Shown here: piece after piece, positions 1,889 through 31,754 of the stretch
Numbering within the stretch: the stretch's first letter is position 1
Layout of the letters: the number at the start of each line of letters is the position of its first letter
The notes under the pieces: model-generated
Told to the model about the DNA's origin: nothing
What the model saw: only the letters and a program-made list of their open reading frames with translations
Databases searched by the model: none
IMG/VR virus record: IMGVR_UViG_3300044527_000317
Span: 1-32,116 of that record
DNA: 32,116 nt
Reading direction: 5' to 3' (one strand)
DNA from: a virus
Made by a program: the position numbers and the translations under genes

Positions 1889-1918
1889 TGTATACTGTCA
1901 CGCAGCAGGAGGTGCGAC

Positions 1919-18207: not shown

Positions 18208-18208
18208 C

Positions 18209-18532: not shown

Positions 18533-18588
18533 GATGCACCTCCGGGCTGTAGGGCCGCTCAGACGGCCCAGGATCGACGAAACGGTGA

Positions 18589-18612
18589 AGCCCGGGCGAT
18601 GATGCCCGGGCT
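18589..18612. other. Perfect 9-bp hairpin between two leftward genes
   Basis: AGCCCGGGC (18589-18597), loop GATGAT, then GCCCGGGCT (18604-18612). A second hairpin, GGGCCG / CGGCCC, lies just below at 18552-18569. Neither is followed by a T-run on the minus strand, so they are not typical intrinsic terminators. They separate the 129-residue gene from the lysozyme-like gene and may tune expression or mRNA decay. Confidence 0.55.
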
Positions 18613-18627
18613 CTGGCAGCGTGGCGC

Positions 18628-19017
18628 TCACATCCGCACGGGGCGGCGCACGTGGATCTCGACGCGCCAGTTGAGCGGCACCGCGCGCAGCACCTCGTAC
18701 AGCGCCCGCGCCTCGGGCTCCGGCAGGCTCAGCGACACCGTGCGGATGTCGCCGCTGCGGGCGTTGCGCCAGCCGAGGATGCCCCAGCGCTCGCGCAGCA
18801 TGTCGCGGATCAGCGCCAGGCGCTGGCGCGGCAGCTCGACCACGACGCGGTCCCACGTCGCATCGCCCGGCATCGCGCCCAGGCAGGTGGCGAGGACGGC
18901 AGTGCTCATCGAATTGGCCTCGGCGTCGGTCCACGGGCGCCACGTGGTCACGGTGATGGTGGCGATCAGCTGCCAGTCCGGGACGATCTGCGTGCTGCTG
19001 GTGGTCGTGGTCGTCAT
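18628..19017 (-). CDS. Unknown 129-residue protein
   Basis: Starts MTTTTTSSTQIVPDW, then a beta segment LIATITVTTWRPWTDAEANS, a helical middle (ALIRDMLRERWGILGW), and ends VSLSLPEPEARALYEVLRAV with a basic strand IHVRRPVRM. No recognisable motif, signal or membrane segment. The start codon lies inside copy A of the 72-bp repeated cassette, which supplies its ribosome site GAGAGGAGC. The same cassette precedes two other leftward genes, so the three share one translation signal. Confidence 0.7.
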   Translation of the reverse strand: MTTTTTSSTQIVPDWQLIATITVTTWRPWTDAEANSMSTAVLATCLGAMPGDATWDRVVVELPRQRLALIRDMLRERWGILGWRNARSGDIRTVSLSLPEPEARALYEVLRAVPLNWRVEIHVRRPVRM

Positions 19018-19083
19018 GGCGGTGCTCCTCTCGTGGTGCGTGGGGCGCCACAGCGGCGCCCCTCTCGCGAAGGTGGTCAGCGG
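19012..19083 (-). repeat. 72-bp intercistronic cassette, copy A
   Basis: One of three near-identical 72-bp copies. Read leftward it holds the end of the 95-residue gene (stop at 19077-19079), a perfect hairpin GGGGCGCC / GGCGCCCC (arms 19055-19062 and 19042-19049, 5-nt loop), the ribosome site GAGAGGAGC and the start codon of the next gene. Copy A differs from B and C at a GAA instead of GGC near its distal end. No T-run follows the hairpin. Confidence 0.9.
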
Positions 19084-19364
19084 TTCAGGTACTGCAGATC
19101 GTTGCCGACCTGCCAGCGGTACTCGCGATCGTCATCGGCGACCGGGTCGGGATCGTTGTAGTCGCCCACGAGCCCGTGCCGCACGATGTCGATCGTCAGC
19201 CATGGCTTCAGGGTCCACGGCAGCTTCACCAGGTAGTCGACGATATACCGGCGCGGCACCAGGGTCGACTCCTCGAGCTCGTCGATGATGATCTCCATCG
19301 CGGCTCGATCCTCGGGGTCTGCCCACAGGCGGTACATGGCGTCCTGAACGATGTCTTGCGTCAT
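19077..19364 (-). CDS. Unknown acidic 95-residue protein
   Basis: Starts MTQDIVQDAMYRLWADPEDR; helical and acidic with EIIIDELEESTLVPRRYIVD and DYLVKLPWTLKPWLTIDIV, ending DDDREYRWQVGNDLQYLNR. No known motif. The ATG at 19364 lies in copy B of the 72-bp cassette, with the ribosome site GAGAGGAGCACCGCC. Small acidic proteins in early phage units often bind and inhibit host proteins or mimic DNA, but nothing in the sequence proves that here. Confidence 0.7.
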   Translation of the reverse strand: MTQDIVQDAMYRLWADPEDRAAMEIIIDELEESTLVPRRYIVDYLVKLPWTLKPWLTIDIVRHGLVGDYNDPDPVADDDREYRWQVGNDLQYLNR

Positions 19365-19430
19365 GGCGGTGCTCCTCTCGTGGTGCGCGGGGCGCCACAG
19401 CGGCGCCCCTCTCGCGGCGGTGGTCAGCGG
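19359..19430 (-). repeat. 72-bp intercistronic cassette, copy B
   Basis: Same layout as the other copies: stop codon of the 110-residue gene, perfect 8-bp hairpin (19389-19396 with 19402-19409, loop ACAGC on the plus strand), GAGAGGAGC ribosome site, start codon at 19364. It differs from copies A and C by a C for T substitution just before the hairpin (GTGCGCGG against GTGCGTGG). Confidence 0.9.
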
Positions 19431-19756
19431 GCGATGCGAGCGGTCAGGATGGCGTCGACCTCGTCGGCGTGCTCGGTGGCGATCGTCAGCAGGGACGCCA
19501 GGCGGGCGTGCAGCCGATCGATCTGGGCGCCGCTGCGCGCGTCGGTCGACCACTGCAGCAGGCGCAGCTCGCGGCAGATGTCGATCGCCTCCATCGACAG
19601 GTCCTCCGTGGCCTCGGCGAGCGCGTAGGCGGCATCGGCGTCGGCGCTATCGCTGTCATCGCACAGCTCGTAGACCTCGGCGCTCGCGTCGCTGGCGCGA
19701 TCGCACAGTTCGCGGATGACGTCACGGATGTCCTCGGGGTGCTGCATGGTCGTCAT
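19424..19756 (-). CDS. Unknown acidic helical 110-residue protein
   Basis: Starts MTTMQHPEDIRDVIRELCDR at 19756 (a second ATG at codon 4 is possible). Strongly acidic and almost all helical: ASAEVYELCDDSDSADADAA, YALAEATEDLSMEAIDICREL, RLHARLASLLTIATEHADEV. No domain recognised. Its translation start is in copy C of the 72-bp cassette. Content and company suggest a small early protein that may act through protein contacts. Confidence 0.7.
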   Translation of the reverse strand: MTTMQHPEDIRDVIRELCDRASDASAEVYELCDDSDSADADAAYALAEATEDLSMEAIDICRELRLLQWSTDARSGAQIDRLHARLASLLTIATEHADEVDAILTARIAR

Positions 19757-19822
19757 GGCGGTGCTCCTCTCGTGGTGCGTGGGGCGCCACAGCGGCGCCC
19801 CTCTCGCGGCGGTGGTCAGCGG
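19751..19822 (-). repeat. 72-bp intercistronic cassette, copy C
   Basis: Third copy, between the 158-residue gene (stop at 19816-19818) and the 110-residue gene (start at 19756). Hairpin arms are 19781-19788 and 19794-19801 around ACAGC. All three copies include both the last codon or two of the upstream gene and the first codons of the downstream one. Confidence 0.9.
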
Positions 19823-20292
19823 GCGGTGCGGCGGCGCGGCATCGGCGGGTTCGGCAGGCGGACATCGTAGGCGACCGGCGCGGCGACCGGGGCGGGAGCG
19901 CTGCGCTGCTCGCTGCTCACCACCGGGGCGACCGAGGCGCGGGCGGCGCGGCGCCGCGGCAGCGCCGGGCTCGGCAGGCGCACATCGTAGGCGACCGGCG
20001 CGGCGGCGACGACCGGCGCGGCGACCGTCTCGACGATCGGGGCGACCTTGACCTCCAGCTGCGCCAGCAGCTGCAGGTACGTCGCGGTGAGCTGCGTCTG
20101 CGCCAGGCGGGCGCGGCGCAGCTGGCGGTTCGCCTGGTCCATCGCGGCGCTGCGCGTCAGGCTGTCGGCGACGATCGCGGCGGCGCGCTCGATCGCGTAC
20201 AGCGCGTCCAGCTCGGCGGCGGATGCAGCGGCGAGTTCCTGTCGAACGATGTCCAGCGTGCCGTCGATGATCGTCTGCGTCGTGCTGCTCAT
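19816..20292 (-). CDS. Unknown 158-residue protein with C-terminal duplicate, first gene after the internal leftward promoter
   Basis: The N-terminal 85 residues are helical (IIDGTLDIVRQELAAASAAE, RQLRRARLAQTQLTATYLQL), probably coiled coil. The C-terminal half is Ala/Pro/Val-rich with a duplicated motif: APVAYDVRLPSPALPRRRAA at about 96-115 and APVAYDVRLPNPPMPRRRTA at the very end, each ending in a basic cluster. Such a disordered basic tail could bind nucleic acid. GGAGGGCACAGCC precedes the ATG. The promoter at 20343-20371 would start transcription about 44 nt upstream. No family recognised. Confidence 0.72.
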   Translation of the reverse strand: MSSTTQTIIDGTLDIVRQELAAASAAELDALYAIERAAAIVADSLTRSAAMDQANRQLRRARLAQTQLTATYLQLLAQLEVKVAPIVETVAAPVVAAAPVAYDVRLPSPALPRRRAARASVAPVVSSEQRSAPAPVAAPVAYDVRLPNPPMPRRRTAR

Positions 20293-20342
20293 GGCTGTGC
20301 CCTCCAGGTGCCCCGGGGTCTCTCTCTCGCCCCGACACCAGA

Positions 20343-20371
20343 AGAATACCAGACTGGTACACGATTGTCAA
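20343..20371 (-). promoter_or_regulatory. Leftward sigma70-type promoter
   Basis: On the minus strand TTGACA (20371-20366), a 17-bp spacer, then TATTCT (20348-20343). This is close to the bacterial consensus and is the best promoter in the window. It would drive the block from 20292 down to 16045. The transcript would begin with a GTGTCGGGGCGA segment that closely resembles the leader downstream of the leftward promoter near 24950, which suggests a duplicated promoter-leader unit. Confidence 0.85.
20347..20359. promoter_or_regulatory. Operator-like palindrome in the internal leftward promoter
   Basis: TACCAG A CTGGTA is a perfect 6-bp dyad with one central base. It covers part of the -10 element and most of the spacer of the promoter at 20343-20371, exactly where a repressor would block RNA polymerase. 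The half-site differs from the TTGTGC sites of the main divergent promoter, so a different regulator would be expected, for example one of the nearby HTH proteins. Confidence 0.6.
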
Positions 20372-20373
20372 TA

Positions 20374-20400
20374 GGGTTTAGGGGGTTTTTTGGGGGGATT
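20374..20400 (+). other. G/T-rich tract upstream of the internal leftward promoter
   Basis: The plus strand has runs of three, five and six G separated by T-rich spacers (AGGGTTTAGGGGG, T6, then G6 and ATTTT). It lies between the HTH gene's end and the -35 box. The minus strand is correspondingly C/A-rich and could act as an upstream promoter element or slow leftward polymerase. A palindrome ACGAGTTTT C AAAACTCGT (20405-20423) overlaps the HTH gene's stop beside it and might end leftward transcription. Confidence 0.45.
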
Positions 20401-20412
20401 TTCCACGAGTTT

Positions 20413-21018
20413 TCAAAACTCGTCGGATTCCTCCGCCAATTTGCCCCAGCGCTGGCACAGCAGCAGGACATTCTCGGGCTGGCAGCCATACTGGCGCGCG
20501 ATGTCGGACCACGTCGCGCCCTCCTCGCGCAGCGCCATCCACTGGCGCACGCGCTCGAGCGTCCCGTCGCGTGGGCCAATGCTGTGCTGGCGCTCCGCCT
20601 TCAGCCCCAGACGGCGCAGGGCGTGGTAAATCGTCGCCGGATGGCGCTGGACCTCCGCCGCGATGTCGACCACGCGCACGCCGTCGAGCGCCATCTGGCG
20701 AATCTGCTCCACCTGCGCGGCGGTCACGCGCGGTGTGCGTCCGCCCCGGTCGTTCGGCTGCCGTGGCGCGACTGGCCGGCGCCAGCGCTTGACCGTCGAG
20801 AACCCGATGCCCAGCGTTCGGGCGATCTCGGCGCAGCCGATGCCGTCGTCGGCCATCTGGGCGATCCGATCGCGCGTCGCCTGCGACAGCGGTGGCGCAC
20901 TGCGCCGCCGGCTCGGTGGCCGCACGCCTGCCGCCGCGGACTCGGCGCGCTCGACGGCCTCGGCGGCGTCCTTCTTGGCGCGGTAGCGCTGGTATGCGCT
21001 CGGCAGCTCCCACGTCAT
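20413..21018 (-). CDS. Protein with three helix-turn-helix modules
   Basis: 201 residues. Three HTH-like modules: about 44-80 (RIAQMADDGIGCAEIARTLG, then FSTVKRWRR), about 97-137 (QIRQMALDGVRVVDIAAEVQ, then PATIYHALRR) and about 155-192 (REEGATWSDIARQYGCQPEN). The first two resemble homeodomain-like modules of resolvases and transposases, but no catalytic domain is attached. The start overlaps the DUF1599-like gene by ATGA, with GGGAGG upstream. As the last gene before the internal promoter it could be the regulator that binds the palindrome there. A replication or packaging role is also possible. Confidence 0.75.
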   Translation of the reverse strand: MTWELPSAYQRYRAKKDAAEAVERAESAAAGVRPPSRRRSAPPLSQATRDRIAQMADDGIGCAEIARTLGIGFSTVKRWRRPVAPRQPNDRGGRTPRVTAAQVEQIRQMALDGVRVVDIAAEVQRHPATIYHALRRLGLKAERQHSIGPRDGTLERVRQWMALREEGATWSDIARQYGCQPENVLLLCQRWGKLAEESDEF

Positions 21019-21434
21019 ACGTCACCTCCCAGCATCATCGATCCCAGCACACAGTAGCCGACCAGGTCGCGCAGCGTGTCGACGATCGCGTCGTGCGTGA
21101 CGCGGCTGGGCTCGGCGCGGCTCAGCGTGTCGAGCCGCGCGGCCTTGTCGCTGATGCGCACGACGATCCCCAGCTGCCCGTGCCACTGCTGGTTCACGGG
21201 CCCGTACTGCGCCCGCCGCAGCAGCAGCAGATCGATCAGGCCCTGCCGATCCCACGCATCGACGCCGCGCAGCCTGGCGATGGCCCAGCGCCCGAGCACG
21301 TGGTAGCACTCGTCGAGCGTCCCGACGCTGGGCAGCTTCTGCCGGCGCAGCAGCGTCAGGGCGTCGGCGGGATCGCCGCGGCCCTTCCAGTCCTCCATGC
21401 CCATCAGGGCAATCTCGATGCGCTCATGATGCAC
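21015..21434 (-). CDS. DUF1599-like (nucleotide-modification-associated) protein
   Basis: 139 residues from a GTG at 21434, chosen because GGGGAGG lies 6 nt before it. The second half carries the pattern I associate with DUF1599 / nucleotide modification associated domain 1: AQYGPVNQQW (75-84), GIVVRISDKAARLDTLSRAE (89-108), and DTLRDLVGYCVLGSMML (119-135). The order 'YG..N..W, RI.DK..RL, D...Dl.gY' suggests an all-helical fold with an acidic metal site, perhaps acting on nucleotides. The biochemical role is not established. Its start overlaps the upstream HTH gene by 11 nt and its stop overlaps the next start by 4 nt. Confidence 0.65.
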   Translation of the reverse strand: MHHERIEIALMGMEDWKGRGDPADALTLLRRQKLPSVGTLDECYHVLGRWAIARLRGVDAWDRQGLIDLLLLRRAQYGPVNQQWHGQLGIVVRISDKAARLDTLSRAEPSRVTHDAIVDTLRDLVGYCVLGSMMLGGDV

Positions 21435-21753
21435 GGTCGACCTCCCCGAGCTGTCGCACGATCCGCACCACGGTGGCGCGGTGGATCTGCAGGTTCGCGG
21501 CGATGCGGCGCGTCGAGACGCCGAGGCGATGCTGGTGCAGCACGTCCTGCACCACCTCGGGCGACTGGCGCGTCGTCGAGACGCGCCGATCCTCGTACAC
21601 GTCGGCCCACGCAATGCCCGCGCGGAGCGACTCGCGCTGCATGCGGTACATGGTGGCCTGTCGGCTGATGCCCCAGGCCTGGGCGATGCGCTGCGCGGCG
21701 ATCCCGCCGCGATACAGGCGCAGCGCCTCGGCGTCGGTCATGTCACGATTCAC
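21424..21753 (-). CDS. Double HTH DNA-binding protein
   Basis: 109 residues from a GTG at 21753, with GAGGAG 4 nt upstream; an ATG at 21741 is the alternative start. Two HTH modules are visible: RLYRGGIAAQRIAQAWGISR followed by ATMYRMQRE, and VVQDVLHQHRLGVSTRRIAA followed by RATVVRIVRQ. There is no catalytic domain. Its start overlaps the zinc-ribbon gene by 11 nt, the same overlap length seen at 21424-21434 and 17180-17190. It may be a regulator of the phage units or a replication accessory protein. No specific family recognised. Confidence 0.7.
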   Translation of the reverse strand: MNRDMTDAEALRLYRGGIAAQRIAQAWGISRQATMYRMQRESLRAGIAWADVYEDRRVSTTRQSPEVVQDVLHQHRLGVSTRRIAANLQIHRATVVRIVRQLGEVDRAS

Positions 21754-22216
21754 GGTTCTCCTCCATCCAGTCATACGAGTCGATGATCCGGCGATAGCGC
21801 AGCAGGGCGTCGTCGTGGCGCTGCGTCATGGCCAGCCACGCGCGCAGGCCGTCGTAGTACGGGCGCAGCTCGACGTGCGCGCGCATCGTGGCGCGCAGCC
21901 GGGCCTCATCGGTGCCCAGCATCACGGCCGTCGTCACGCGCTGCCAGCGCTCGAGGTGCTCCTGCGGCAGCTCGGCGATCAGCGTCAGCCACCGCTGCGA
22001 CTGAAGCTCGATCTGCGCCACCAGCTCGGCCATGGCCTGCTGCGCGATGGCGCGCTGCGTGGTGTCCGCAGCGCACGGCTCGCACAGGTCGATGCCGTCG
22101 AGGAACACGCGCGGGCGCGCCTGGCCGCAGACCACGCAGCGCACGCGGTAGGCTGGGGGCGCTGGCGCCCCCATCGTCGGCGGAAACAGGTCCTCGTTCG
22201 TGTGTTTGCGGCGCAT
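21743..22216 (-). CDS. Zinc-ribbon helical protein of unknown function
   Basis: 157 residues. Cys27/Cys30 (CVVC) and Cys45/Cys48 (CEPC) form a likely zinc ribbon of the kind 'RCVVCGQ..P......LC.PC'. The rest is helical and acidic/basic mixed: AMAELVAQIELQSQRWLTLI, LERWQRVTTAVMLGTDEAR, RRIIDSYDWMEENRES. It starts 8 nt after the clamp stop. The zinc-ribbon-plus-helix layout would suit a small replication or transcription factor, but nothing more specific is visible. Confidence 0.7.
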   Translation of the reverse strand: MRRKHTNEDLFPPTMGAPAPPAYRVRCVVCGQARPRVFLDGIDLCEPCAADTTQRAIAQQAMAELVAQIELQSQRWLTLIAELPQEHLERWQRVTTAVMLGTDEARLRATMRAHVELRPYYDGLRAWLAMTQRHDDALLRYRRIIDSYDWMEENRES

Positions 22217-22223
22217 GATGCCC

Positions 22224-23399
22224 TCACCTCGTCATCGGCATGATCACGGCCTCGATGCACGCGCTGGCCCGCGGTTGTGCGTCAGCGTCCCACATGATCG
22301 CCGACAGGTACGGCGGCATGGTCGCCGTGCCCATCGTGAGCACCACGTCGCCGCCGCACGCCTTCAGCGCGTCGGCGACGTAGGCCAGGTTCAGCAGCGC
22401 CTCGCCGCTGCCTGCGCCGTCCTGCACGGCGATCGGCACGCTCACCTGCCGCCCTTCGTGCTGCGCGGTGACCAGCAGTCCGTCGGCGCCCAGCACGAAC
22501 CGCGCGCACGGCGTCGTCGACGCGCCCTTCGGCGCGCTGTACAGCTGCCCCAGACGCACAGCGCTCTGCAGCGTGGCCAGCGCGTCGCCGGTGATCCGGC
22601 AGCGGTTCGGCGACTCGCGCGACGGCTGCAGCACGCGCTCGAGCTGCGGGAACGCCCCGTGGATCGTGCGCGTCCACATCGTCACATCGCCGCCCACGGC
22701 GCACAGCACGCCGTCCATGACGCCGATCTGCTCGATCGGCAGCGTGGCCAGCACGACGCACGCCGCGCGCGGCACGATCACGTCCAGGCGATGGCCGACG
22801 ACATCGTCGCCGGTCTGCGTCAGGCTGGCGCGATGCGCGCGATACCCGTCGGACGACTCGAGCGTCACGTCGTCGTCGTCGACCACGACGTGCACGCCGG
22901 CCAGCGCCGGGCGTCCGGTGTCGGTCGCTGCCGACAGCAGCGTGGCCGCCAGTGCCCGCGACAGGAACGCCGCGGGCACGGGCGTCATGCCGTCCGGCGC
23001 CAGGCGCGCCTCCGGCCACTCGGCGGCCTCCATCATCGGCAGCGACGCCGTGACGCGTCCGGCGCTGATCGTCATCAGGCTGCCAGCCTCGACGGCGCGG
23101 TACGGCGGGGCGCTGATCTCGACCTCGATCTCCTGCACGCTCGCCGGCAGCGCCGCGATCGTCTTGCTCATGAGCTCGTGGTCGACCACCGTGCTGATGC
23201 CGGTGCCAACCTGGCCGCAGCGCACCGTCATGTCCAGGCTGGTGCACTCGGCATAGCGCAGCGACGCCGCGGCATCGGCGTTCTCATCCCACACCAGCAG
23301 CACGCCGGCGAGGATCGGGACTGGCGGCTTCTTCACTGCGACACGGCCGACGATGGCGAGGCGGTCGCGGAGCGTCTTGACGTTCGTGGTGATCCGCAT
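22224..23399 (-). CDS. dnaN: DNA polymerase III beta sliding clamp homologue
   Basis: 391 residues from the ATG at 23399; the frame upstream is not coding. It has the clamp three-domain layout: domain 1 with LRDRLAIVGRVAVKKPPVPI then LAGVLL, and LMTISAGRVTASLPMMEA; domain 2 with FLSRALAATLLSAATDTGRP then ALAGVHV, VTLESSDGYRAHRASL, and FPQLERVLQPS; domain 3 with LATLQSAVRLGQLYS, ARFVLGADGLLVTA and EALLNLAYVADALKACGG. Clamps encircle DNA and tether polymerases and repair enzymes. Length is slightly above the bacterial norm of about 370. No polymerase or clamp loader gene is visible in the window, so it probably works with host subunits. Phage-encoded bacterial-type clamps are uncommon. Confidence 0.9.
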   Translation of the reverse strand: MRITTNVKTLRDRLAIVGRVAVKKPPVPILAGVLLVWDENADAAASLRYAECTSLDMTVRCGQVGTGISTVVDHELMSKTIAALPASVQEIEVEISAPPYRAVEAGSLMTISAGRVTASLPMMEAAEWPEARLAPDGMTPVPAAFLSRALAATLLSAATDTGRPALAGVHVVVDDDDVTLESSDGYRAHRASLTQTGDDVVGHRLDVIVPRAACVVLATLPIEQIGVMDGVLCAVGGDVTMWTRTIHGAFPQLERVLQPSRESPNRCRITGDALATLQSAVRLGQLYSAPKGASTTPCARFVLGADGLLVTAQHEGRQVSVPIAVQDGAGSGEALLNLAYVADALKACGGDVVLTMGTATMPPYLSAIMWDADAQPRASACIEAVIMPMTR

Positions 23400-23459
23400 G
23401 GTCTGGTCTCCTCGTGTGCTCAGGCGCGCCTGGCACCGTGCTGGGCGCGCCACGATCGA

Positions 23460-24266
23460 CTAGAACGGCTCGGCGTAGGGGTCGTCCTCGGTGACCGGCG
23501 GCGTGGCCGGCGCTGCTGCCGGCGCCGCCGGCGTCTCGCGCAGCCACGCGTCGTACTGGGCGCGCAGCGCCTCGCCGCGCTCGAGCAGCGCCCTGCCGAC
23601 GTACAGCGCGCGCGCCATGGTGGCGACGTCGCCGTCGGGCAGGATCAGCTTCGGCGGCGTCACCGGCGAGCCCTTCGTCTTCTCGTAGACCGGCTGCTTG
23701 CGCGCATCGACCTCGCCGCGCACCGGCAGCCAGAACGCCCAGCTGGGCACGCCGGGGTTCTTGCGCTCCCGCCGGAACGGCTCCAGCAGTGCCGTGCGGT
23801 ACTCGCGCAGCATCGAGACCAGCCCCATGCTCGTCTTGATGCGCTTGCTGGCCCACACCACCGGCGTGTCGAGGCCCTGCGCCATCACCAGCACCTCGAC
23901 GTACAGCGACCACCCGGCGGGCTTCGGCGCGCCGCGTGGCGGGCGCGGGATGTACGTCATCACGCCGTCGGTGTCGATGGTCACGTCGTGCTGCCGCACG
24001 CCCAGCACGGCGACCTTCAGCGCCCGAGCCTCGTAGCCCGACTCGCTGCTGCCGCTGCGGAACGTCCGGTCGATCTCGCGCCACGGCGAGCCCTCGACCG
24101 TGACGCCGTGGTCCTCGATGCGCCGGCGCGTCACGAAGAATGCGCCGGGCGTCCTGCTGCCCGGGTCGCCGTTCAGCCAGTTGATGCGGCACAGCCCGTC
24201 GCCCTGCGGCGCGTTGTCCTGGTAGGCGGTGGCGAACGTGTTCAGATCGTTGATGTCGTGCGTCAT
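23460..24266 (-). CDS. Single-stranded DNA-binding-like protein with acidic C-terminal tip
   Basis: 268 residues. It opens DINDLNTFATAYQDNAPQGD, has strands with MTYIPRPPRGAPKPAGWSLY and VLVMAQGLDTPVVWASKRIK, and a basic helical middle. The last 40 residues are a flexible Ala/Pro linker ending in EDDPYAEPF. A linker plus an acidic tip ending in Pro-Phe is the hallmark of bacterial SSB (DDDIPF), used to dock replication partners. Position directly upstream of the clamp supports a replication role. The fold is not obvious from sequence, so SSB function is inferred. The start is in a 22-bp repeat shared with the next gene upstream. Confidence 0.6.
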   Translation of the reverse strand: MTHDINDLNTFATAYQDNAPQGDGLCRINWLNGDPGSRTPGAFFVTRRRIEDHGVTVEGSPWREIDRTFRSGSSESGYEARALKVAVLGVRQHDVTIDTDGVMTYIPRPPRGAPKPAGWSLYVEVLVMAQGLDTPVVWASKRIKTSMGLVSMLREYRTALLEPFRRERKNPGVPSWAFWLPVRGEVDARKQPVYEKTKGSPVTPPKLILPDGDVATMARALYVGRALLERGEALRAQYDAWLRETPAAPAAAPATPPVTEDDPYAEPF

Positions 24267-24284
24267 GATGCGGCTCCTGTCAGT
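24263..24284 (-). repeat. 22-bp start-site repeat, copy 1
   Basis: Matches 24690-24711 with one mismatch. Read leftward each copy carries the upstream gene's stop, the ribosome site GAGGAGCC (copy 1 has ACAGGAGCC) and a start codon in CATCATGA. It is a shorter relative of the 72-bp cassette, which has GAGAGGAGCACCGCC before its start codon. Confidence 0.8.
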
Positions 24285-24693
24285 TCACAGTCTGCGACGA
24301 GATAACACGAAAGTTCGAGATCACACCGCTCAGATCCGAGTCGGCAGTGCACAGCACCTCACGCCGTCCACCCTGGTTGGTGTGGCGAAAGCGCATGGTC
24401 AGGCTGATGGTATCGCCGGTGCCGAGCACAGTCGTCACGATATGCTCGAAGTCTTGCCCAAAGCCGATCCGCTTGACGTGATCGGCCAAGCCGATGTGCG
24501 AGCCATCGGCGGCCAGCAATGCGTTGACGGCGGTCTGCCGCAGCGTGGCAGCATCTGGCGTGCTGGTCGACACCACCACAGTGGCATCATCGGTGATCGT
24601 GCTCGACGTGCGCCCCATCGTGCCGATGGCGCAGCATCCACACACAGTGGCCAATGCGCCCAGACTGGTCATGATCATGGTGCGACGATTCAT
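24280..24693 (-). CDS. Exported or lipoprotein candidate
   Basis: 137 residues with an N-terminal signal: MNRRTMIMTSLGALATVCGC. A basic start is followed by a hydrophobic stretch (7-24) and cysteines at 18, 20 and 21; VCGC could serve as a lipobox with Cys20. The mature part is a small beta-helical domain with TDDATVVVSTSTPDAATLRQ, SLTMRFRHTNQGGRREVLC and a VISNFRVISS end. Secreted lipoproteins in phage early units often block superinfection, but that role is only a suggestion. Base composition is less GC-rich than the flanking genes, compatible with separate acquisition. Confidence 0.65.
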   Translation of the reverse strand: MNRRTMIMTSLGALATVCGCCAIGTMGRTSSTITDDATVVVSTSTPDAATLRQTAVNALLAADGSHIGLADHVKRIGFGQDFEHIVTTVLGTGDTISLTMRFRHTNQGGRREVLCTADSDLSGVISNFRVISSQTVN

Positions 24694-24711
24694 GATGCGG
24701 CTCCTCTCAGT
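24690..24711 (-). repeat. 22-bp start-site repeat, copy 2
   Basis: Near-identical to 24263-24284. It spans the stop of the 63-residue gene, the GAGAGGAGCC ribosome site and the start codon of the lipoprotein candidate at 24693. Confidence 0.8.
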
Positions 24712-24898
24712 CGACGTACAGTGACGGATACGTGGCGGTCAAAGGCGGCAGGTAGATCTGGACTGGCTCGGTGCTGATGCGGGCGAGGCCCCATGCCGCG
24801 CGGTAGGCGTCGTCCAGGCGCATGCTGTGCGTCAGCACGTCGCCGTCCACGCGCAGCGTGTAGCGTCCGTCGGACTGCAGTGTGATCTCGATGGTCAT
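24707..24898 (-). CDS. Tiny unknown protein, first gene of the leftward unit
   Basis: 63 residues from the ATG at 24898: TIEITLQSDGRYTLRVDGDV, then LTHSMRLDDAYRAAWGLARI and a strand-rich end with VQIYLPPLTATYPSLYVD. The longer frame upstream would run through the promoter region, so the internal ATG is preferred. The transcript from the main leftward promoter would carry a leader of about 40-50 nt before it. The beta-beta-alpha shape is compact, but no family is recognised. Confidence 0.65.
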   Translation of the reverse strand: MTIEITLQSDGRYTLRVDGDVLTHSMRLDDAYRAAWGLARISTEPVQIYLPPLTATYPSLYVD

Positions 24899-24947: not shown

Positions 24948-25004
24948 AGTATAGCACAATGGCGCATTGTGCGCAAGTCTAGCTTGTGCGGATTGTGCTA
25001 TACT
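24948..25004. promoter_or_regulatory. Palindromic divergent promoter-operator region
   Basis: AGTATAGCACAAT (24948-24960) and ATTGTGCTATACT (24992-25004) form a perfect 13-bp inverted repeat about 24976. Each arm contains an extended -10 element (TGCTATACT), one facing left and one right. The leftward copy has TTGCGC 17 bp upstream; the rightward one lacks a good -35. Between the arms two 19-bp dyads with 5-bp centres can be read: GCACAAT...ATTGTGC (24954-24972 region) and GCGCAAG...CTTGTGC (24971-24989), plus the half-site in the right arm. The half-site (A/C)TTGTGC recurs four to five times, an operator array able to control both units. Confidence 0.8.
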
Positions 25005-25010: not shown

Positions 25011-25043
25011 ATGGCAAACGGAGAGAGCCAGGGGAGGGTATAA
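25011..25043 (+). CDS. Possible leader peptide of 10 residues before the regulator
   Basis: ATG at 25011, MANGESQGRV, stop TAA at 25041-25043 overlapping the regulator's ATG (TAATG). The ATG sits about 7 nt beyond the rightward -10 element, where transcription should begin, so it could be translated leaderless. The regulator has its own good ribosome site within this frame (GGGGAGG). Coupling is inferred; the ORF may be chance. Confidence 0.35.
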   Translation: MANGESQGRV

Positions 25044-25261
25044 TGGCGTCACCAATCGCTGATCCCGTGCTACGGGTCAACGTGCCAGTTCCTATGAGCA
25101 TGATGCCGGAGATCGAGGCCATGTCTGCGGCGCATGCGCTGAGCGTGCCGCAGTTCCTGCGCAGTATCGTGGTGCAGCACGTCGAGCACGCCCGCATCCG
25201 TCGCACCGCGCAGCAGATGCCCGTGCGCCGCCGTAAGGTTCGTGTCGATGACGCACAGTGA
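25043..25261 (+). CDS. Small ribbon-helix-helix-like regulator
   Basis: 72 residues. LRVNVPVPMSMM (10-21) would be the DNA-binding strand, followed by two helices, PEIEAMSAAHALSVPQFLRS and IVVQHVEHARIRR, the Arc/MetJ/CopG layout, then a basic tail with VRRRKVRVDD. The ATG at 25043 has GGGGAGG five to six bases upstream; a GTG at 24986 in the same frame lies inside the promoter and is unlikely. As the first rightward gene, next to the TTGTGC operator array, it is the obvious candidate to bind there and control both units. RHH assignment rests on pattern, not on a diagnostic residue. Confidence 0.7.
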   Translation: MASPIADPVLRVNVPVPMSMMPEIEAMSAAHALSVPQFLRSIVVQHVEHARIRRTAQQMPVRRRKVRVDDAQ

Positions 25262-25264
25262 ACA

Positions 25265-25299
25265 CAGCGCCCGCCATGTGTGGGGCATGGCGGGCGCTG
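25265..25299 (+). other. Perfect 14-bp hairpin between regulator and primase-helicase genes
   Basis: CAGCGCCCGCCATG (25265-25278), loop TGTGGGG, then CATGGCGGGCGCTG (25286-25299). No T-run follows, so it is not a standard intrinsic terminator. It begins four bases after the regulator's stop. It may act as an attenuator, protect the short regulator message, or limit read-through into the replication gene. Confidence 0.75.
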
Positions 25300-25318
25300 G
25301 GGCCGACAGGAGATTCTG

Positions 25319-25351
25319 ATGTCCGAGACCGAGTATAGGAGATGCCGATGA
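25319..25351 (+). CDS. Possible leader peptide of 10 residues before the primase-helicase
   Basis: ATG at 25319, MSETEYRRCR, stop TGA at 25349-25351 overlapping the next start as ATGA. CAGGAGATTCTG gives it a good ribosome site. It repeats the layout seen before the regulator gene: a 10-residue frame ending on the next start codon. It may couple translation of the initiator to passage of ribosomes, or be chance. Confidence 0.4.
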   Translation: MSETEYRRCR

Positions 25352-27330
25352 CGTCGTCAATTCGTGAGTTGCTGTGGCTGTTGCCGAGCGCATTGACCAG
25401 CCAGCCCGACCTGTGGCTGTCGTGGGATGCCGCGAACAAAAAGCCGGGCCTCGACGAGCGCTGGCAGAAGGACCCGTCCGTGCTGCGCGCCGCCTACCAG
25501 GTGTGCGATGCGATCGGCAAGCGCCAGCTGGGCATCGCGCGCGTCATGCGCGGCGACATCGTGGCGCTCGACCTCGACAAGGTGGTCAGCACGCCGCGCG
25601 ATCTGTCGACGCTGGTCGACTGGGCGCATCCGATCGTCGCCGCCGCGCTCGGCCACGGGTACATCGAGTGGTCGGCGTCCGGGCGCGGCATCCACGTCCT
25701 GCTGCGCGACGTGCCCGAGGGGTGGCAGCGCAAGACCGCGCACCGCCGGGACGATGGCAGTGGCTGGGACTGGATCATCGGCGACAATCTGTGCCACATC
25801 ACGCTCGATGTCATCAGCGACGAGAACAGCCGCCAGATGGTGCCGGCGGCGGACATCATCCCGATCCTCGAGCGCATGCTGCCGAAGCTCGCGCCAGCGC
25901 CGCGCCCCGTCGTGACGCCACCGACGACGACGGCCGTGATCGCCGACGCCGAGCGCCTGCACCGATATGGCGCGATGGCGATGGAGCAGGAGATCGCCGA
26001 GCTGTCGGCCACCATCGAGGGCGGGCGCAACCACGCGCTGAACAAGGCAGCGTTCGCCCTGGGGCAGCTCTCCGCCGGCGGATGCATCGCCGACGTCAAC
26101 GGCATGATGGACGCCGTGATGGGCATCGCCATCGCCATCGGGCTCGATCGCGGCGAAGTCGCGCGGACGTTCCAGAGCGGCTTCGTGGCGGGCCAGAACG
26201 TCCCGCGCGCCCCGCTCGATCGGCCCGAGCGCAGGCCGACGCTGCCGCCGCGCAGGACGCAACCAGCAGCCCCACAAGCCGCCAATGCGACGCCTCCGGT
26301 ATCATCGCCGCAGCCCGCACAGAAGCCCGCACAGAAGCCCGCTGGCGCAGCCGAGTACACCGGCCAGGACGAGACGACGTTCCGCGTCGCGCCGCCCCAC
26401 ACCGATGACGGCATCACGCTCGCCGAGCTGCAACACAAGCACTTCGAGGATCTGCGCTGGGTCATCGAGGACATCGCGCCGGAGGGCGCCCTGCTCATCG
26501 CCGCCAAGCCGAAGGCGAAGAAGTCGTGGCTGGCGCTCAACCTCGGCCTGGCCATCGCGATGGGCGGGCGCGCACTGGGGCGCTACAACGTCATGCAGGG
26601 CGACGTGCTGTACCTCGATCTCGAAGGCAACCAGCGCCGCATCCAGTCGCGCGTGCGCCAGATCCTCGGCGTGCAGGACGTGGCATGGCCGGCCAACTTC
26701 CACGTGCACACCGAGTGGGGCGTCGGCGATGCGTGCATCAACGAGCTGCGCGAGTGGCTGCTGCGCCATCCGACCACGACCGCCGTGGTGGTCGACCTGC
26801 TGCACGAGATCCGCCCGCCGCTCGACCCGCGCGAGGATCGGTACGCCTACGATCGCAACATGCTGGTCGCCCTGAACAAGCTGGCCGAAGAGCTCCACGT
26901 CTGCATCATGGTCATCCACCACACGCGCAAGATGAAGGGTGACGACGTCTTCGAGGAGATCAGCGGCACGCTCGGCATCACCGGCGCGGTGTCGACCATC
27001 TGGGTGCTGTCGAAGGCGCAGGACGGCACCGTGACGCTCAACGTGCAGGGACGTGACCTGGTGCACGACGAGCCGCTCGCGCTCGAGTGGGACACGATGC
27101 TGTGCGGGTTCCGCGTGTCGGGGCTGGCCAGCGAGGTCGCCGTCTCCGATACCCGCCGCCGCATCATCGAGTTCCTCGACGACGATCAGCAGCACAGCCC
27201 GCGCGAGATCGCCGAGGCTATCGAGGCCTCGGTCGGCAGCGTCGACCAGCAGCTGCGGCAGATGCTCAGCGCAGGCGTCGTCGAGAAGATCGGCTATGGC
27301 CGCTGGAGACTCATCCGCAGGGCTCAGTAA
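25348..27330 (+). CDS. Primase-helicase / replication initiator (AEP-like plus RepA-like ATPase)
   Basis: 660 residues. The ATG at 25348 is preferred over 25342 because AGGAG is 6 nt before it. Residues about 1-180 resemble an archaeo-eukaryotic-type primase: VALDLDK (Asp75, Asp77) and IEWSASGRGIHVLL (His116). Residues 225-290 (GGRNHALNKAAFALGQLSAG) are a helical linker domain seen after such primases. After a Pro/Gln linker, about 360-590 are a RepA-like RecA-fold ATPase: Walker A LIAAKPKAKKSWLAL, Walker B AVVVDLL (479-485) and MVIHHTRK (521-528). The C-terminus is a winged helix. The Walker A has Ala-Lys-Lys-Ser where Gly-Lys-Ser is usual. Directly upstream of the iterons, it fits an origin-binding initiator. 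Confidence 0.85.
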   Translation: MTSSIRELLWLLPSALTSQPDLWLSWDAANKKPGLDERWQKDPSVLRAAYQVCDAIGKRQLGIARVMRGDIVALDLDKVVSTPRDLSTLVDWAHPIVAAALGHGYIEWSASGRGIHVLLRDVPEGWQRKTAHRRDDGSGWDWIIGDNLCHITLDVISDENSRQMVPAADIIPILERMLPKLAPAPRPVVTPPTTTAVIADAERLHRYGAMAMEQEIAELSATIEGGRNHALNKAAFALGQLSAGGCIADVNGMMDAVMGIAIAIGLDRGEVARTFQSGFVAGQNVPRAPLDRPERRPTLPPRRTQPAAPQAANATPPVSSPQPAQKPAQKPAGAAEYTGQDETTFRVAPPHTDDGITLAELQHKHFEDLRWVIEDIAPEGALLIAAKPKAKKSWLALNLGLAIAMGGRALGRYNVMQGDVLYLDLEGNQRRIQSRVRQILGVQDVAWPANFHVHTEWGVGDACINELREWLLRHPTTTAVVVDLLHEIRPPLDPREDRYAYDRNMLVALNKLAEELHVCIMVIHHTRKMKGDDVFEEISGTLGITGAVSTIWVLSKAQDGTVTLNVQGRDLVHDEPLALEWDTMLCGFRVSGLASEVAVSDTRRRIIEFLDDDQQHSPREIAEAIEASVGSVDQQLRQMLSAGVVEKIGYGRWRLIRRAQ

Positions 27331-27331
27331 G

Positions 27332-27480
27332 ATTGCCCTAAGAGTCTAAGACTTAGGGCGCTTATGGCTTCACCAAGCCAAACAGCGCCCTAAGAGTTGC
27401 CCTAAGAGTGCCCTAAGACTAAGTCTTAGACTCTTAGGGGTCTTAGGGGTCTTAGGACTCTTAGGGGTCTTAGGGCAATT
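27332..27480. repeat. Iteron cluster, candidate replication origin
   Basis: About ten copies of CCCTAAGA or its complement TCTTAGGG lie in 150 bp. Forward copies start at 27336, 27388, 27400 and 27411; reverse copies lie at 27430-27439, 27441, 27450, 27457 and 27469. A perfect 21-bp inverted repeat joins 27336-27356 to 27419-27439, and ATTGCCCTAAGA / TCTTAGGGCAAT (27332-27343, 27468-27479) bounds the cluster. A central nested dyad has TTAGGGCGCT / AGCGCCCTAA (27353-27362, 27384-27393) outside TGGCTT / AAGCCA (27365-27380). It is non-coding, clearly more A/T-rich than the genome and immediately follows the initiator gene. Confidence 0.8.
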
Positions 27481-27512
27481 CTCTATGGTGACGGAGCACA
27501 AGGAGCCCCTAC

Positions 27513-27806
27513 GTGACAGACCTCATGTCGACGATCAGCGCGCACCTGGCTGCGCACGATCCCGAGCTGGCGCGATGGCTGTGCGCGGCCCCGCGCAGCC
27601 ATCGCGGCACCATCGTGCAGTTCTACCTCGAGGTGGTGCCTGCGCTGCAGCAGTACGTGGACAGCTGCGGCATGCTCTGGACGTCGTGGGCGTATCTGAC
27701 GTACTACCCAGTCGATGTGCTGCCCGTCGACATCGTGACGCGTGCAATGGTCGTGGCCTACGCTGACGTGACGGAGACGCTCGAAGGACAAGGAGTCATG
27801 CCATGA
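27513..27806 (+). CDS. Unknown 97-residue helical protein
   Basis: Starts at GTG 27513, with AAGGAG 7 nt upstream. MSTISAHLAAHDPELARWLC, then IVQFYLEVVPALQQYVDSCG and LYVDSCGMLWTSWAYLTYYP-like aromatic sequence (MLWTSWAYLTYYPVDVLP), and AYADVTETLEGQGVMP. Mostly helical and acidic, with no signal peptide or clear transmembrane helix. It overlaps the methyltransferase start by ATGA (27803-27806), so the two are probably co-translated. No family recognised. Confidence 0.65.
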   Translation: MTDLMSTISAHLAAHDPELARWLCAAPRSHRGTIVQFYLEVVPALQQYVDSCGMLWTSWAYLTYYPVDVLPVDIVTRAMVVAYADVTETLEGQGVMP

Positions 27807-29101
27807 TGAAGAACGTGGACAAGGCGCCGTTCCCATGGTTCGGTGGCAAGGCAAAAGCCGCCGACCTGGTGTGGCGGCTGATCGGTGACGTGCCGCACTA
27901 CGTCGAGCCGTTCTATGGGTCCGGCGCCGTGCTGCTCAATCGGCCACATCCGGCGAATCGCCCGTACTACAGCGAGACCGTCAACGATCTGGACGGGTTC
28001 GTGGTGAACTTCTGGCGGGCCGTGCAGTGGTATCCCGACGATGTGGCCCATGCCGCGTCGTGGCCGGTCAGTGAGGCCGACAAGTCGGCGCGGCAGATCG
28101 CCCTGCTGCGATGGCGCGACGGGGCGCTCGATCGCCTCGCCGGTGATGCGTGCTGGTGCGATCCGCTGATGGCCGGGTGGTGGGCGTGGGCCGTCTCTGT
28201 CCAGATCGGGGGGTTTGACGGCAAGAGCGGCTGGACTGCCGACCCCAGCACCGGCAAGATCTATGCCCAGCCGCGCGGTAGGACACGCGAGCCGGGCGTC
28301 GCGCGCGACCTGCCGCATCTCGCCAACGACGGCCAGGGCGTCAACCACGCGGGGACACGCGAGCCGGGCGTCGCGCGCGACCTGCCGCATCTCGCCAACA
28401 ACGGCCAAGGCGTCAACCACGCGGGGACACGCGAGCCGGGCGTCGCGCGCAACCGGCCGCATCTCATCGGCAACGGCCAGGGCGTCAATCATCCGGGGAC
28501 ACGCGAGCCGGGCGTGCTCGATGTGCCGACGGCGGAGCACGGGCGCAGCCGACTGGACACCGTGGACTGGGGCGCGGCGTATCATGATCTGACGATGCCG
28601 GAGCTGATCCGCTGGCTGCGTCATCTGGCGGCGCGGCTGCGGCACGTGCGCATCCTCAACGGCGACTGGTCGCGACTGGTCACGACAGGCGCAGCGCACA
28701 CGCTGCCGGTGCGGCAGGGGCACGGCCCATGCGGCGTGTTTCTCGATCCGCCCTATGCGGACAGTGCCGCCCGGAATGACTCGCTGTATGCGTGCGAGGA
28801 TCTGCAGGTGGCGCACGATGTTCGCGCATGGTGTCTGTCCAACGGCAACAATCCTCTCTTCCGCATCGTCCTCGCCGGGTTTGATGGCGAGCACGGCAGC
28901 GCGCTGGTCGATGCGGGCTGGACTGAGCACGAGTGGTTCACAGCCGGGTTCCTGAGCGGCGGCATGGGCAACGTCGGCAAGAACGGCAAGACACACCAGC
29001 AGCATCGCGAGCGGCTCTGGTCGTCGCCGCACTGCCTGCCGCTGACATCGCAGACTCCGATCAGTCATCAGATCACGATGTTCACGGAGGACGAATCATG
29101 A
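27803..29101 (+). CDS. DNA adenine N6-methyltransferase, D12 (Dam-like) class, with internal repeats
   Basis: 432 residues. The D12-class order is clear: FPWFGGK (10-16), EPFYGSGAVLL (35-45, the SAM-binding FxGxG type motif), ETVNDLD (58-64) and FLDPPYAD (about 312-319, the catalytic DPPY). It transfers a methyl group from SAM to adenine N6 in a short target. Between the N-terminal part and the DPPY half, in the target-recognition region, lie three 24-residue repeats (161-232) of the form TREPGVARDLPHLANDGQGV plus NHAG and a fourth partial copy. The gene overlaps both neighbours by four bases. It probably protects phage DNA and, with the Mom-like protein, may act in a layered modification scheme. 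Confidence 0.9.
   Translation: MMKNVDKAPFPWFGGKAKAADLVWRLIGDVPHYVEPFYGSGAVLLNRPHPANRPYYSETVNDLDGFVVNFWRAVQWYPDDVAHAASWPVSEADKSARQIALLRWRDGALDRLAGDACWCDPLMAGWWAWAVSVQIGGFDGKSGWTADPSTGKIYAQPRGRTREPGVARDLPHLANDGQGVNHAGTREPGVARDLPHLANNGQGVNHAGTREPGVARNRPHLIGNGQGVNHPGTREPGVLDVPTAEHGRSRLDTVDWGAAYHDLTMPELIRWLRHLAARLRHVRILNGDWSRLVTTGAAHTLPVRQGHGPCGVFLDPPYADSAARNDSLYACEDLQVAHDVRAWCLSNGNNPLFRIVLAGFDGEHGSALVDAGWTEHEWFTAGFLSGGMGNVGKNGKTHQQHRERLWSSPHCLPLTSQTPISHQITMFTEDES
28283..28516 (+). repeat. Three and a fraction 72-bp tandem repeats inside the methyltransferase gene
   Basis: Units start at 28283, 28355, 28427 and (partial) 28499, each beginning ACACGCGAGCCGGGCGT. The first two units differ at only a few bases; the third is more diverged (RNRPHLIGNGQGVNHPG). 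The 72-bp length keeps the frame, so units can be gained or lost without breaking the protein. The motif PHLxNxGQGVN recurs in each unit. Confidence 0.92.
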
Positions 29102-29628
29102 CCGTTCGATTCCGATCCGACATCCGCCAGTGGACTGACGGGGCGGCGCTCGCCGCCCACCTCTGGCGCCACGACGCCGCCCTGGGCGCGTGGTGGCGGG
29201 CGCTGGTGCTGCACCACACCGTCGCCCCGACGCTCGCCCAGTGGCGCGGCAGGCGCTCGATGGACGCCCTGCAGCGCTACTACACCGGGCTCGGCTGGGA
29301 CTCGGGGCCGCACCTGTTCATCGCCGTGGGCTCGCCGCGCGTCGAGGACGATGGCATCTGGCAGCTCACCGCGCTGTCCGAGCGCGGCATCCACGCCAAC
29401 CGCTGCAACGTGTACAGCGTCGGCATCGAGGTTGTGGGCTGGTACGATCGTGCGCCGTGGTCGGTGCCGATGCGCCGGATGGTGTATGATGTCCTTGTCC
29501 AGCTGCAGCGCTGGCAGCGACGGCCGATCACCATCATCGGCCACCGCGACTGTGGCTCGCCGAAGTCCTGCCCGGGGCGCGCCATCGACCTTGATGTGGT
29601 GCGGGCAGATGTGGCGAGGCTGCTGTGA
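29098..29628 (+). CDS. N-acetylmuramoyl-L-alanine amidase endolysin (PGRP / amidase_2 type)
   Basis: 176 residues from the ATG at 29098 (ATGA overlap with the methyltransferase stop). The zinc-amidase residues are in place: VLHHTV (His39/His40), GIEVVGW (Glu111), GHRDCGSPKSCPG (148-160; His149 and Cys158). SMDALQRYYTGLGWDSGPHL then FIA lies in the substrate-groove region. It cleaves the bond between muramic acid and the stem peptide to lyse the host. There is no signal peptide, so it needs a holin, and two membrane-protein genes follow at once. No cell-wall-binding domain is attached. Confidence 0.92.
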   Translation: MTVRFRSDIRQWTDGAALAAHLWRHDAALGAWWRALVLHHTVAPTLAQWRGRRSMDALQRYYTGLGWDSGPHLFIAVGSPRVEDDGIWQLTALSERGIHANRCNVYSVGIEVVGWYDRAPWSVPMRRMVYDVLVQLQRWQRRPITIIGHRDCGSPKSCPGRAIDLDVVRADVARLL

Positions 29629-29852
29629 CACAGGACAACGTGAACGCGATTCTGGTGACCCTGGCGCGCATCGAGGAGCGGCTGATCACGATGCAGAAGC
29701 GCCTCGACCAGGGCGATGCCGCGTTCGTCGAGATCGAGGATCGCCTGAGTGATCTCGAGCTGCGCATGGCCAAGATGGGCGCGATCGCGGCGCTGATCGC
29801 CGTGATCATGCCGATCGTCCTGACGGCGCTGCTGCGCTGGCTGATCCCGTAG
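29625..29852 (+). CDS. Small coiled-coil protein with C-terminal membrane helix (XhlA-like lysis accessory)
   Basis: 75 residues from a GTG overlapping the amidase stop (GTGA). Residues about 5-50 are coiled coil (ILVTLARIEERLITMQKRLD, EIEDRLSDLELRMAKM); 51-70 are one hydrophobic helix (AIAALIAVIMPIVLTALLRW). This is the haemolysin XhlA-like layout found in phage lysis cassettes, where it assists or acts as a holin partner. Family assignment is by shape and position. Confidence 0.75.
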   Translation: MTQDNVNAILVTLARIEERLITMQKRLDQGDAAFVEIEDRLSDLELRMAKMGAIAALIAVIMPIVLTALLRWLIP

Positions 29853-29861
29853 GAGGACGTC

Positions 29862-30158
29862 ATGGAGAGCGTGATCGCCGCCAGCAGCGCGGCGCTGGTC
29901 ACCGGGTATCTCGTTGAGCTCGCGAAGCTGGCCATCCCTGACATCGAACCCTGGCTGGTGGTGCTGGTGTCGCTGACTGCCGGTATCCTGTCGGCGTTCC
30001 TGATCGCGACGGCAAGCGGCGCGCCGCTCGACGCCGCCGGGATCGCCACGCGCATCCTCGAGGGCATCGCCGCAGCGGCAGCGGCGGCGGGCCTGACGCG
30101 CACCATGCAGCGCGCCGATCTGGCGCGCATCGACGCGACGCATCGCGCAGATCCGTGA
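29862..30158 (+). CDS. Holin candidate
   Basis: 98 residues, with GTAGGAGGACGTC before the ATG. Hydrophobic segments: about 5-24 (moderate), 29-51 (WLVVLVSLTAGILSAFLIAT) and 63-80 (ATRILEGIAAAAAAAGLT), with a charged C-terminus RADLARIDATHRADP. Two or three membrane helices in under 100 residues right after an endolysin fit a holin, which opens the membrane at a set time. No conserved holin family motif is visible. Confidence 0.7.
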   Translation: MESVIAASSAALVTGYLVELAKLAIPDIEPWLVVLVSLTAGILSAFLIATASGAPLDAAGIATRILEGIAAAAAAAGLTRTMQRADLARIDATHRADP

Positions 30159-30271
30159 GACCGTGCTCAACCAAGACCGCCCCGATCTCATGGCCGGGGA
30201 TATCGTGAGGACACGGCGCGGGCGTGCTCATCACTGCGCGCGTGGCATGGGATCAGGAACGCGAGGACATC

Positions 30272-30595
30272 ATGGCTCGACCACAAAAGCCCCGCAAACT
30301 GGACGAGGAGCAGGTGCAGCAGCTGGCATCGCTCGGCCACAGCGATAGCATCATCGCGGTGTTGGCCGGCGTGTCCGAGAGCACACTGAAGCGCCGTTTT
30401 GACCCTTACTTAAAGCAAGGCCGCGCCGAGCTGCACCAGCAGATCCGCACGCTGCAGCTGCAGCGCGCCCGCGACGGCAGCGACACGATGCTGATCTGGC
30501 TGGGCAAGTGCGTGCTCGGCCAGCGCGAGCACATCGAGCAGACGGTACACAGCGAGACGAAGATTGTCATCGACATCGGCGACGACACACCGTGA
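30272..30595 (+). CDS. Terminase small subunit-like protein
   Basis: 107 residues from ATG 30272 with GAGG 5 nt upstream; the GTG at 30224 in the same frame lacks a good ribosome site. An HTH (LASLGHSDSIIAVLAGVSES followed by TLKRRF, residues about 17-43) recognises DNA, and RDGSDTMLIWLGKCVLGQRE (about 70-89) matches the helix '.g....aiflgkn.LGq.d' typical of small terminases. The acidic beta end TKIVIDIGDDTP is also common there. It binds the packaging site and loads the large subunit, whose gene follows two bases after its stop. Confidence 0.82.
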   Translation: MARPQKPRKLDEEQVQQLASLGHSDSIIAVLAGVSESTLKRRFDPYLKQGRAELHQQIRTLQLQRARDGSDTMLIWLGKCVLGQREHIEQTVHSETKIVIDIGDDTP

Positions 30596-30596
30596 G

Positions 30597-31754
30597 GTGG
30601 TGCTGCGGCACAGCAGCGCCACCGGCCCGCAGCGGGAGTTCTGGCGATCGCCGGCGCGGTACCGCGCGTTCGTCGGCGGCGTGGGCAGCGGCAAGTCCCG
30701 CGCCGGCGCCGTCGAGGCGCTGCGCCAGCCGCCCGGCGTGGGCATGGTGCTGGCGCCGACCTACCCGATGCTGCGCGACGCGACGCTGCGCAGCGTCGCC
30801 GACCTGGCGCAGCGCGGGAACATCGTCAAGTCGTGGCATCGCACCGAGATGCGCATGGAGCTCATCAACGGGCTCACCATCCTGTTCCGCAGCGCCGATG
30901 ATCCCGACCGACTGCGCGGCCCCAACCTGTCGTGGTTCTGGCTCGACGAGGCGGCGATGATGCCGCACGACGTGTGGCTGATCATGCTGGGCCGACTGCG
31001 CGTCGCCCCCGGCCGTGCGTGGATCACCACGACGCCGCGCGGACGTAACTGGGTGTGGCAGACGTGGCAGGCGGCGGGCCCGGACTACGCGCTGATCCGC
31101 AGCAGCTCGCGCGATAACCCCTACCTGCCGTCGGACTTCGTGGCCACGCTCGAGGCGTCGTACACCAGCACCTTCGCGGCGCAGGAGATCGGCGGGGAGT
31201 TCGTCGAGCCCGACGGCGCGATGTTCCGCCGGGCGTGGTTCCGCGTGATCGACGCCGCGCCGCCGGGGCTGCGCTGGGTGCGGTACTGGGACCTCGCCGC
31301 GTCGACGAAGAGCAGCGCCGACTACACCGCCAGCGCTGCGGTGGCGATGGCCGACGACGGCACGCTGTACGTGCGCGACATGGTGCGGGGCCGCTGGGAG
31401 TGGCCCGACGCGCGCGGCGTGATGGTGCAGACCATGCTGCGCGAGCCGCAGACGATCCACGCCGTCGAGCAGGCCATGCACGGCCTGGCCGCGCTGCAGG
31501 AGCTGCGCCGCGATCGCGAGCTCGCGGGCGTCACGCTGCGCGGCGTCGCGCCTCGCGGCGACAAGATCCAGCGCGCGATGCCGTGGGCGGCGCGGGCCGA
31601 GGCCGGCAAGGTCGCGCTCGTCGCCGGGCCGTGGGTGCGGGAGTTCATCGACGAGGCCACAGCGTTCCCAGCTGGGCCACACGACGACCAGGTCGATAGC
31701 GTGAGTGGCGCAATCCCGCTGCTGCGGGCGGCGACCTATCAGGGGGTACGGTGA
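30597..31754 (+). CDS. Terminase large subunit
   Basis: 385 residues from GTG 30597, two bases after the small subunit stop; a TTG at 30564 is an alternative start. The ATPase has Walker A GGVGSGKS (27-34), Walker B WFWLDEA (113-119) and coupling motif TTTPRG (144-149). The C-terminal nuclease has RYWDLAAS (Asp232), a conserved Glu region AVEQAMHG (Glu291) and PHDDQVDS (361-368). It cuts concatemers and pumps DNA into the prohead. Length is slightly under the 400-450 usual. The lack of an apparent cos site and the circular assembly would fit headful packaging, but sequence alone does not decide this. Confidence 0.94.
   Translation: MVLRHSSATGPQREFWRSPARYRAFVGGVGSGKSRAGAVEALRQPPGVGMVLAPTYPMLRDATLRSVADLAQRGNIVKSWHRTEMRMELINGLTILFRSADDPDRLRGPNLSWFWLDEAAMMPHDVWLIMLGRLRVAPGRAWITTTPRGRNWVWQTWQAAGPDYALIRSSSRDNPYLPSDFVATLEASYTSTFAAQEIGGEFVEPDGAMFRRAWFRVIDAAPPGLRWVRYWDLAASTKSSADYTASAAVAMADDGTLYVRDMVRGRWEWPDARGVMVQTMLREPQTIHAVEQAMHGLAALQELRRDRELAGVTLRGVAPRGDKIQRAMPWAARAEAGKVALVAGPWVREFIDEATAFPAGPHDDQVDSVSGAIPLLRAATYQGVR

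Follow-up and report, generated by a model that had tools for sequence, protein, structure and literature searches.

The boundary between two opposed gene blocks in a phage genome raises the question of how far the control of a single divergent promoter extends. The window, by which we mean the whole 32,116-nt stretch of viral DNA that was analysed, contains such a boundary, and a sequence-only reading had proposed that one palindromic promoter there controls the entire genome, with a small RHH-like regulator setting the balance of the two arms. The two-armed layout behind this proposal was borne out, as the third-codon-position GC and the identified homologous genes agreed that 1-16095 and 25043-32116 code on the plus strand and 16045-24898 on the minus strand. 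The two ends of the record matched each other over 146 bases with 3 differences, so a circular reading of the map is reasonable (a complete circular or terminally redundant genome). On the leftward arm, a 63-residue protein is followed by a sliding-clamp cluster, and on the rightward arm, the RHH protein is followed by a primase/helicase-like gene.

Several other features of the map were recorded. The arms meet tail to tail, where the ends of the genes at 15862-16095 (plus strand) and 16045-17304 (minus strand) overlap by about 51 bases, which leaves no room for a separate terminator. The gene at 17551-18378 (minus strand) weakly matched the Mom DNA-modification family (E 0.0004, below the Pfam cut-off), and a D12-class adenine methyltransferase is encoded at 27803-29098. 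An 80-nt repeat (19012-19091, 19359-19438, and 19751-19830; 89-98% identical) spans the starts of three successive small leftward genes and brings the same upstream region and start to each; part of it is also present in relatives. Directly after the primase/helicase-like gene, a CCCTAAGA / TCTTAGGG repeat array at 27336-27476 includes a perfect 21-bp inverted pair and direct copies spaced 9 bp, and is a possible replication origin.

The inverted repeat occupies the gap where the two gene blocks diverge. The features of this region are as follows.

24707..24898, minus strand: first leftward gene, 63 residues, function unknown, no family match
24948..25004, both strands: perfect 13-bp inverted repeat with a 31-nt gap
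24948..24956, minus strand: P_L1, leftward extended -10 TGCTATACT (relatives' counterpart TGGTATACT)
24954..24960, minus strand: half-site S1, ATTGTGC, which with S2 makes GCACAATG-gcg-CATTGTGC
24966..24972, plus strand: half-site S2, ATTGTGC (relatives have ATGTGC at the corresponding place)
24983..24989, plus strand: half-site S3, CTTGTGC (relatives again have ATGTGC at the corresponding place)
24992..24998, plus strand: half-site S4, ATTGTGC, merging with the rightward -10
24996..25004, plus strand: P_R1, rightward extended -10 TGCTATACT (relatives' counterpart TGTTATACT)
25011..25043, plus strand: 10-codon ORF MANGESQGRV, starting 6 nt past the -10, its stop overlapping the RHH start (TAATG)
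25043..25261, plus strand: 72-residue RHH-like protein, proposed autoregulator
25265..25299, plus strand: perfect 14-bp hairpin directly 3' of the RHH gene, possible attenuator

The inverted repeat with back-to-back extended -10 elements was found as described: its arms (24948-24960 and 24992-25004) were complementary at 13 of 13 positions and carried two outward-facing copies of TGCTATACT. The record of 32,116 bases contains exactly two copies of the string TTGTGCTATACT, both of them at 24948-25004. In 39 of 200 dinucleotide shuffles, one or more perfect 13-bp inverted repeats with loops of up to 60 nt were present (mean 0.3 per genome), and since about one in five shuffled genomes holds a comparable repeat, the dyad by itself is weak evidence and only mildly unusual. 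Eleven of the 13 bases of each arm are the string TGTGnTATACT, which is a strong extended -10. No good -35 box was present at P_L1 or P_R1, and both were therefore missing from the general promoter scan. When a sigma-70-type promoter was defined by a -10 with either a TG extension or a -35 at 16-18 bp, both -10s qualified through TGCTATACT.

The array of half-sites that had been placed between the two -10s stood in part. Four clustered sites were present, but only S2 and S3 lie between the -10s, while S1 and S4 are the arms themselves, fused to the -10s. The motif (A/C)TTGTGC was no commoner than chance genome-wide (8 observed, 6.65 expected), and four of the eight copies fell within 57 bp, a span in which 200 shuffles never exceeded two. 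The spacing of the sites was irregular, with centres 12, 17, and 9 bp apart.

Terminase relatives led to six related phages in IMG/VR (G002-G006 and G012). The full divergent region was present in G003, G005, G006, and G012, the right half only in G002, and in G004 the region carried a truncated RHH gene. The relatives share the layout AGTATACCACA ... TGTGTTATACT with two ATGTGC between and the RHH gene first; in G004, one internal site was lost and the other changed to ATGCGC. The RHH gene adjoined the promoter in all five relatives that extend that far, and where complete, its product was about 31-34% identical to the window protein. A small protein resembling the first leftward gene product was also found left of the promoter. 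The half-site spacing was not the same as in the window, and the promoter cores were 35 nt apart in the window and 58 nt apart in the relatives. A start codon lay exactly 6 nt past the rightward -10 in all records. The five near-identical relatives' records amount to about one independent observation. No alignable DNA was found by blastn across the promoter between the window and the relatives, yet the back-to-back TGTGnTATACT elements and the rest of the architecture were kept, which points to selection. Together, the sequence elements and their conservation in diverged relatives support a pair of putative divergent extended -10 promoters.

The search for further relatives gave little. No such promoter dyad was seen in the pieces read of the more distant terminase relatives G008-G011 (about 55% identity). 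Scans for close relatives that used the primase and RHH proteins as queries found none, the RHH alignment scan added none, and the primase alignment returned the same five only. The annotated phage collection held no close relatives of this phage group, and a terminase scan of genomes for the host gave distant matches only, all to uncultured bacteria, including one Chloroflexota MAG at 43%.

The 72-residue protein matched no Pfam family, and among PHROGs it matched only PHROG 13890, a family of unknown function, weakly (E 0.061). When the RHH profile was searched against PDB sequences, no match was significant. Profiles often miss short diverged RHH proteins, so an absent profile match does not exclude this fold. 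A single-chain AlphaFold2 model, built from a four-row alignment, placed helices at 18-30 and 35-57 after an extended N-terminal segment (mean pLDDT 73.7, core above 90). The N-terminal RHH strand was unassigned in this monomer model, and the extended segment followed by two helices was counted as the strand-then-two-helices order of RHH proteins. Almost all Foldseek matches in the PDB were RHH proteins (among them CopASO, Arc, ParG, and CopG), each with a weak E-value (best 0.34), and the viral matches included many proteins annotated RHH. The protein therefore likely has an RHH fold, as judged from the model. The predicted fold, the Foldseek list, and the conserved position all favor the view that an RHH-type protein comes first in the rightward unit.

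The 10-codon ORF overlapping the RHH start was present in the window and five closer records, and the relatives' peptide MGTAI[I/T]WRRL was unrelated in sequence; G004 has GTG at the start position of this ORF, in frame with RHH. The hairpin at 25265-25299 was very stable (-33.9 kcal/mol, z -4.7) and had no T-run, and a different, unrelated G+C-rich hairpin stood at the same place after the RHH gene in the relatives. It suggests attenuation, or may protect the RHH message. It is conceivable, though rather unlikely, that the rightward mRNA is leaderless, starting at the start codon of the 10-codon ORF, and that the repressor is made by termination-reinitiation. If that were true, the hairpin would complete a self-limiting repressor cassette, with control at the levels of transcription start, translation, and read-through.

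Two further observations concern this segment. In G012 (locus L036), the hairpin that follows the RHH gene has a loop whose orientation varied among close relatives (CCGGTGGACGAAACCGG vs CCGGTTTCGTCCACCGG on the same strand), as if the element had been flipped. A promoter-like TTGACG-17-TATACT at 25360-25332 (minus strand) lies within the start of the primase gene and is directed back across the RHH gene, with TATAAT at the matching place and orientation in relatives; an antisense transcript is possible from this motif.

The claim that one promoter controls the entire genome was not supported. It implied no other promoter within either arm, and two candidates were present there.

20343..20371, minus strand: P_L2, second leftward promoter, canonical TTGACA-17-TGGTATTCT (TATTCT) in which TGG precedes the -10, located in a conserved stretch between genes
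1891..1896, plus strand: P_R2, second rightward -10 TATACT, preceding the genes for the prohead protease and capsid

P_L2 lies where the GC content of the window is lowest, around 20361. Its intergenic stretch was 76-82% identical in three relatives (G003, G004, and G006), where the elements read TTGACA/TTGACG and TGGTATAGT or TGGTATATT. At P_R2, we estimate that roughly two TATACT are expected by chance in a genome of this composition, so the evidence is not the string but its conservation and position, as relatives carry TGCTATACT at the aligned place. No (A/C)TTGTGC half-sites were found at P_L2 or P_R2. Moreover, simple rightward read-through from the divergent promoter is made less likely by the very strong hairpin that immediately follows the RHH gene.

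In the window, the leaders downstream of the two leftward -10s (24948 and 20343, minus strand) have GGTGTCGGGG(G)CGA...AGAGACC in common, and only 2 of 2000 shuffles reached as high a score; this match was not seen between the corresponding two leaders of the relative G003. A 5' hairpin on the leftward transcripts was rejected, as it was significant in the relative that was folded (z -3.4 and -2.7) but not in the window (z +1.1 and +0.3).

We consider it probable that the RHH protein is an autorepressor acting on the compact divergent early-promoter pair P_L1/P_R1, as a local switch and not as genome-wide control. Host sigma-70-type RNA polymerase would recognise the two promoters through their extended -10s, without good -35 boxes; P_L1 would drive the 63-residue protein gene and then the sliding-clamp cluster, and P_R1 the RHH gene and then the primase/helicase-like gene. 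RHH proteins characteristically act as dimers that place a two-stranded sheet in the major groove of DNA; here such dimers would bind the half-sites overlapping and between both -10s, and repress their own and the opposite promoter together. The far left operon and the head genes would have separate conserved promoter-like sites of their own (P_L2 and P_R2, respectively), which makes the switch a local, early-gene one. The rightward unit opens with the proposed regulator gene, and its promoter overlaps a cluster of repeat half-sites; this arrangement is kept in the relatives. The elements, their conservation, and the predicted fold are read from the sequence itself; from these we infer promoter activity, start points, RHH binding, and repression as the sign of control.

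The main alternative is that the palindrome is simply two strong host promoters back to back, that TTGTGC belongs to the extended -10 consensus, and that the RHH protein acts elsewhere or another regulator is used. In IMG/VR, the pattern AGTATAnCACA-N30-60-TGTGnTATACT was found at 12 loci, four from relatives and eight (seven distinct sequences, two loci being identical) from other, unrelated phages, where the string also tends to sit between divergent reading frames, mostly without a recognisable adjoining RHH gene. At the dyads of L049 and L052, adjacent RHH genes were suspected by eye, with weak repressor matches in PHROGs (E 0.002-0.007) and none in Pfam. Because the same dyad recurs in unrelated phages and 11 of 13 arm bases are consensus, the palindrome is largely the appearance of two good divergent promoters, and promoter function alone can explain the conservation of the arms. 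However, S2 and S3 have no attached -10, the relatives hold two ATGTGC at matching places, and the RHH gene stays adjacent in them. By its sequence, the palindrome is mostly promoter consensus written twice, with the S2 and S3 pair as the part that this does not explain, and we regard this alternative as rather unlikely.

That P_L1/P_R1 transcribe essentially the whole genome, with the RHH protein setting the arm balance, would suit a gene map that is strictly two-armed from this point and the restriction of TTGTGCTATACT to this place. Nevertheless, it is highly improbable in view of the conserved P_L2 and P_R2 within the arms, the strong hairpin that follows the RHH gene, and the repeat array that separates the primase gene from the next gene. 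RHH proteins (ParG, omega) also bind plasmid centromeres, and with a primase/helicase-like gene next in line, the region could mainly be a replication origin or partition site bound by the RHH protein, with transcription secondary. But no ParA-like gene was noticed, the GC skew had no sharp switch at the promoter region, the CCCTAAGA array is a better origin candidate, and the conserved -10 elements and start codons fit promoters, which leaves this idea with very little probability. For an uncultivated phage group, the autoregulated local switch is a model of early regulation that can be tested, with four candidate promoters named. The case also cautions that an eye-catching palindrome between divergent genes may consist mostly of promoter consensus twice over, and that a two-armed gene map does not imply a single promoter.

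The plasmid RHH autorepressors CopG and omega act on clustered short half-sites over the repressor's own promoter. Short half-sites are likewise clustered over the promoter of the RHH gene here, but they are (A/C)TTGTGC with irregular spacing and not a regular array. The immunity I region of P22 (Arc/Mnt) also has a small RHH repressor of a tailed phage, and Arc is said to be autogenously regulated, a finding of 1982 ascribed to Youderian et al. In the fold comparison, the 72-residue protein was 11-16% identical in sequence to Arc. P22 immI is situated in the late-gene region and governs an antirepressor, and a second repressor as well as an antisense RNA take part (PMC2629481), whereas the studied phage has one RHH gene and no antirepressor was recognised in it. 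AvtR of Acidianus filamentous virus 6, likewise an RHH regulator, is a repressor of its own gene and protects a stretch of about 100 nt that lies between two promoters; it has two fused RHH motifs, works with archaeal transcription machinery, and is able to activate its neighbour as well (PMC5569661). The latter three traits set AvtR apart, and the likeness lies in a viral RHH regulator, here a proposed one, at two promoters. The best reading is that this region is a further case of the known kind of RHH-autoregulated divergent promoter, like P22 Arc and AvtR.
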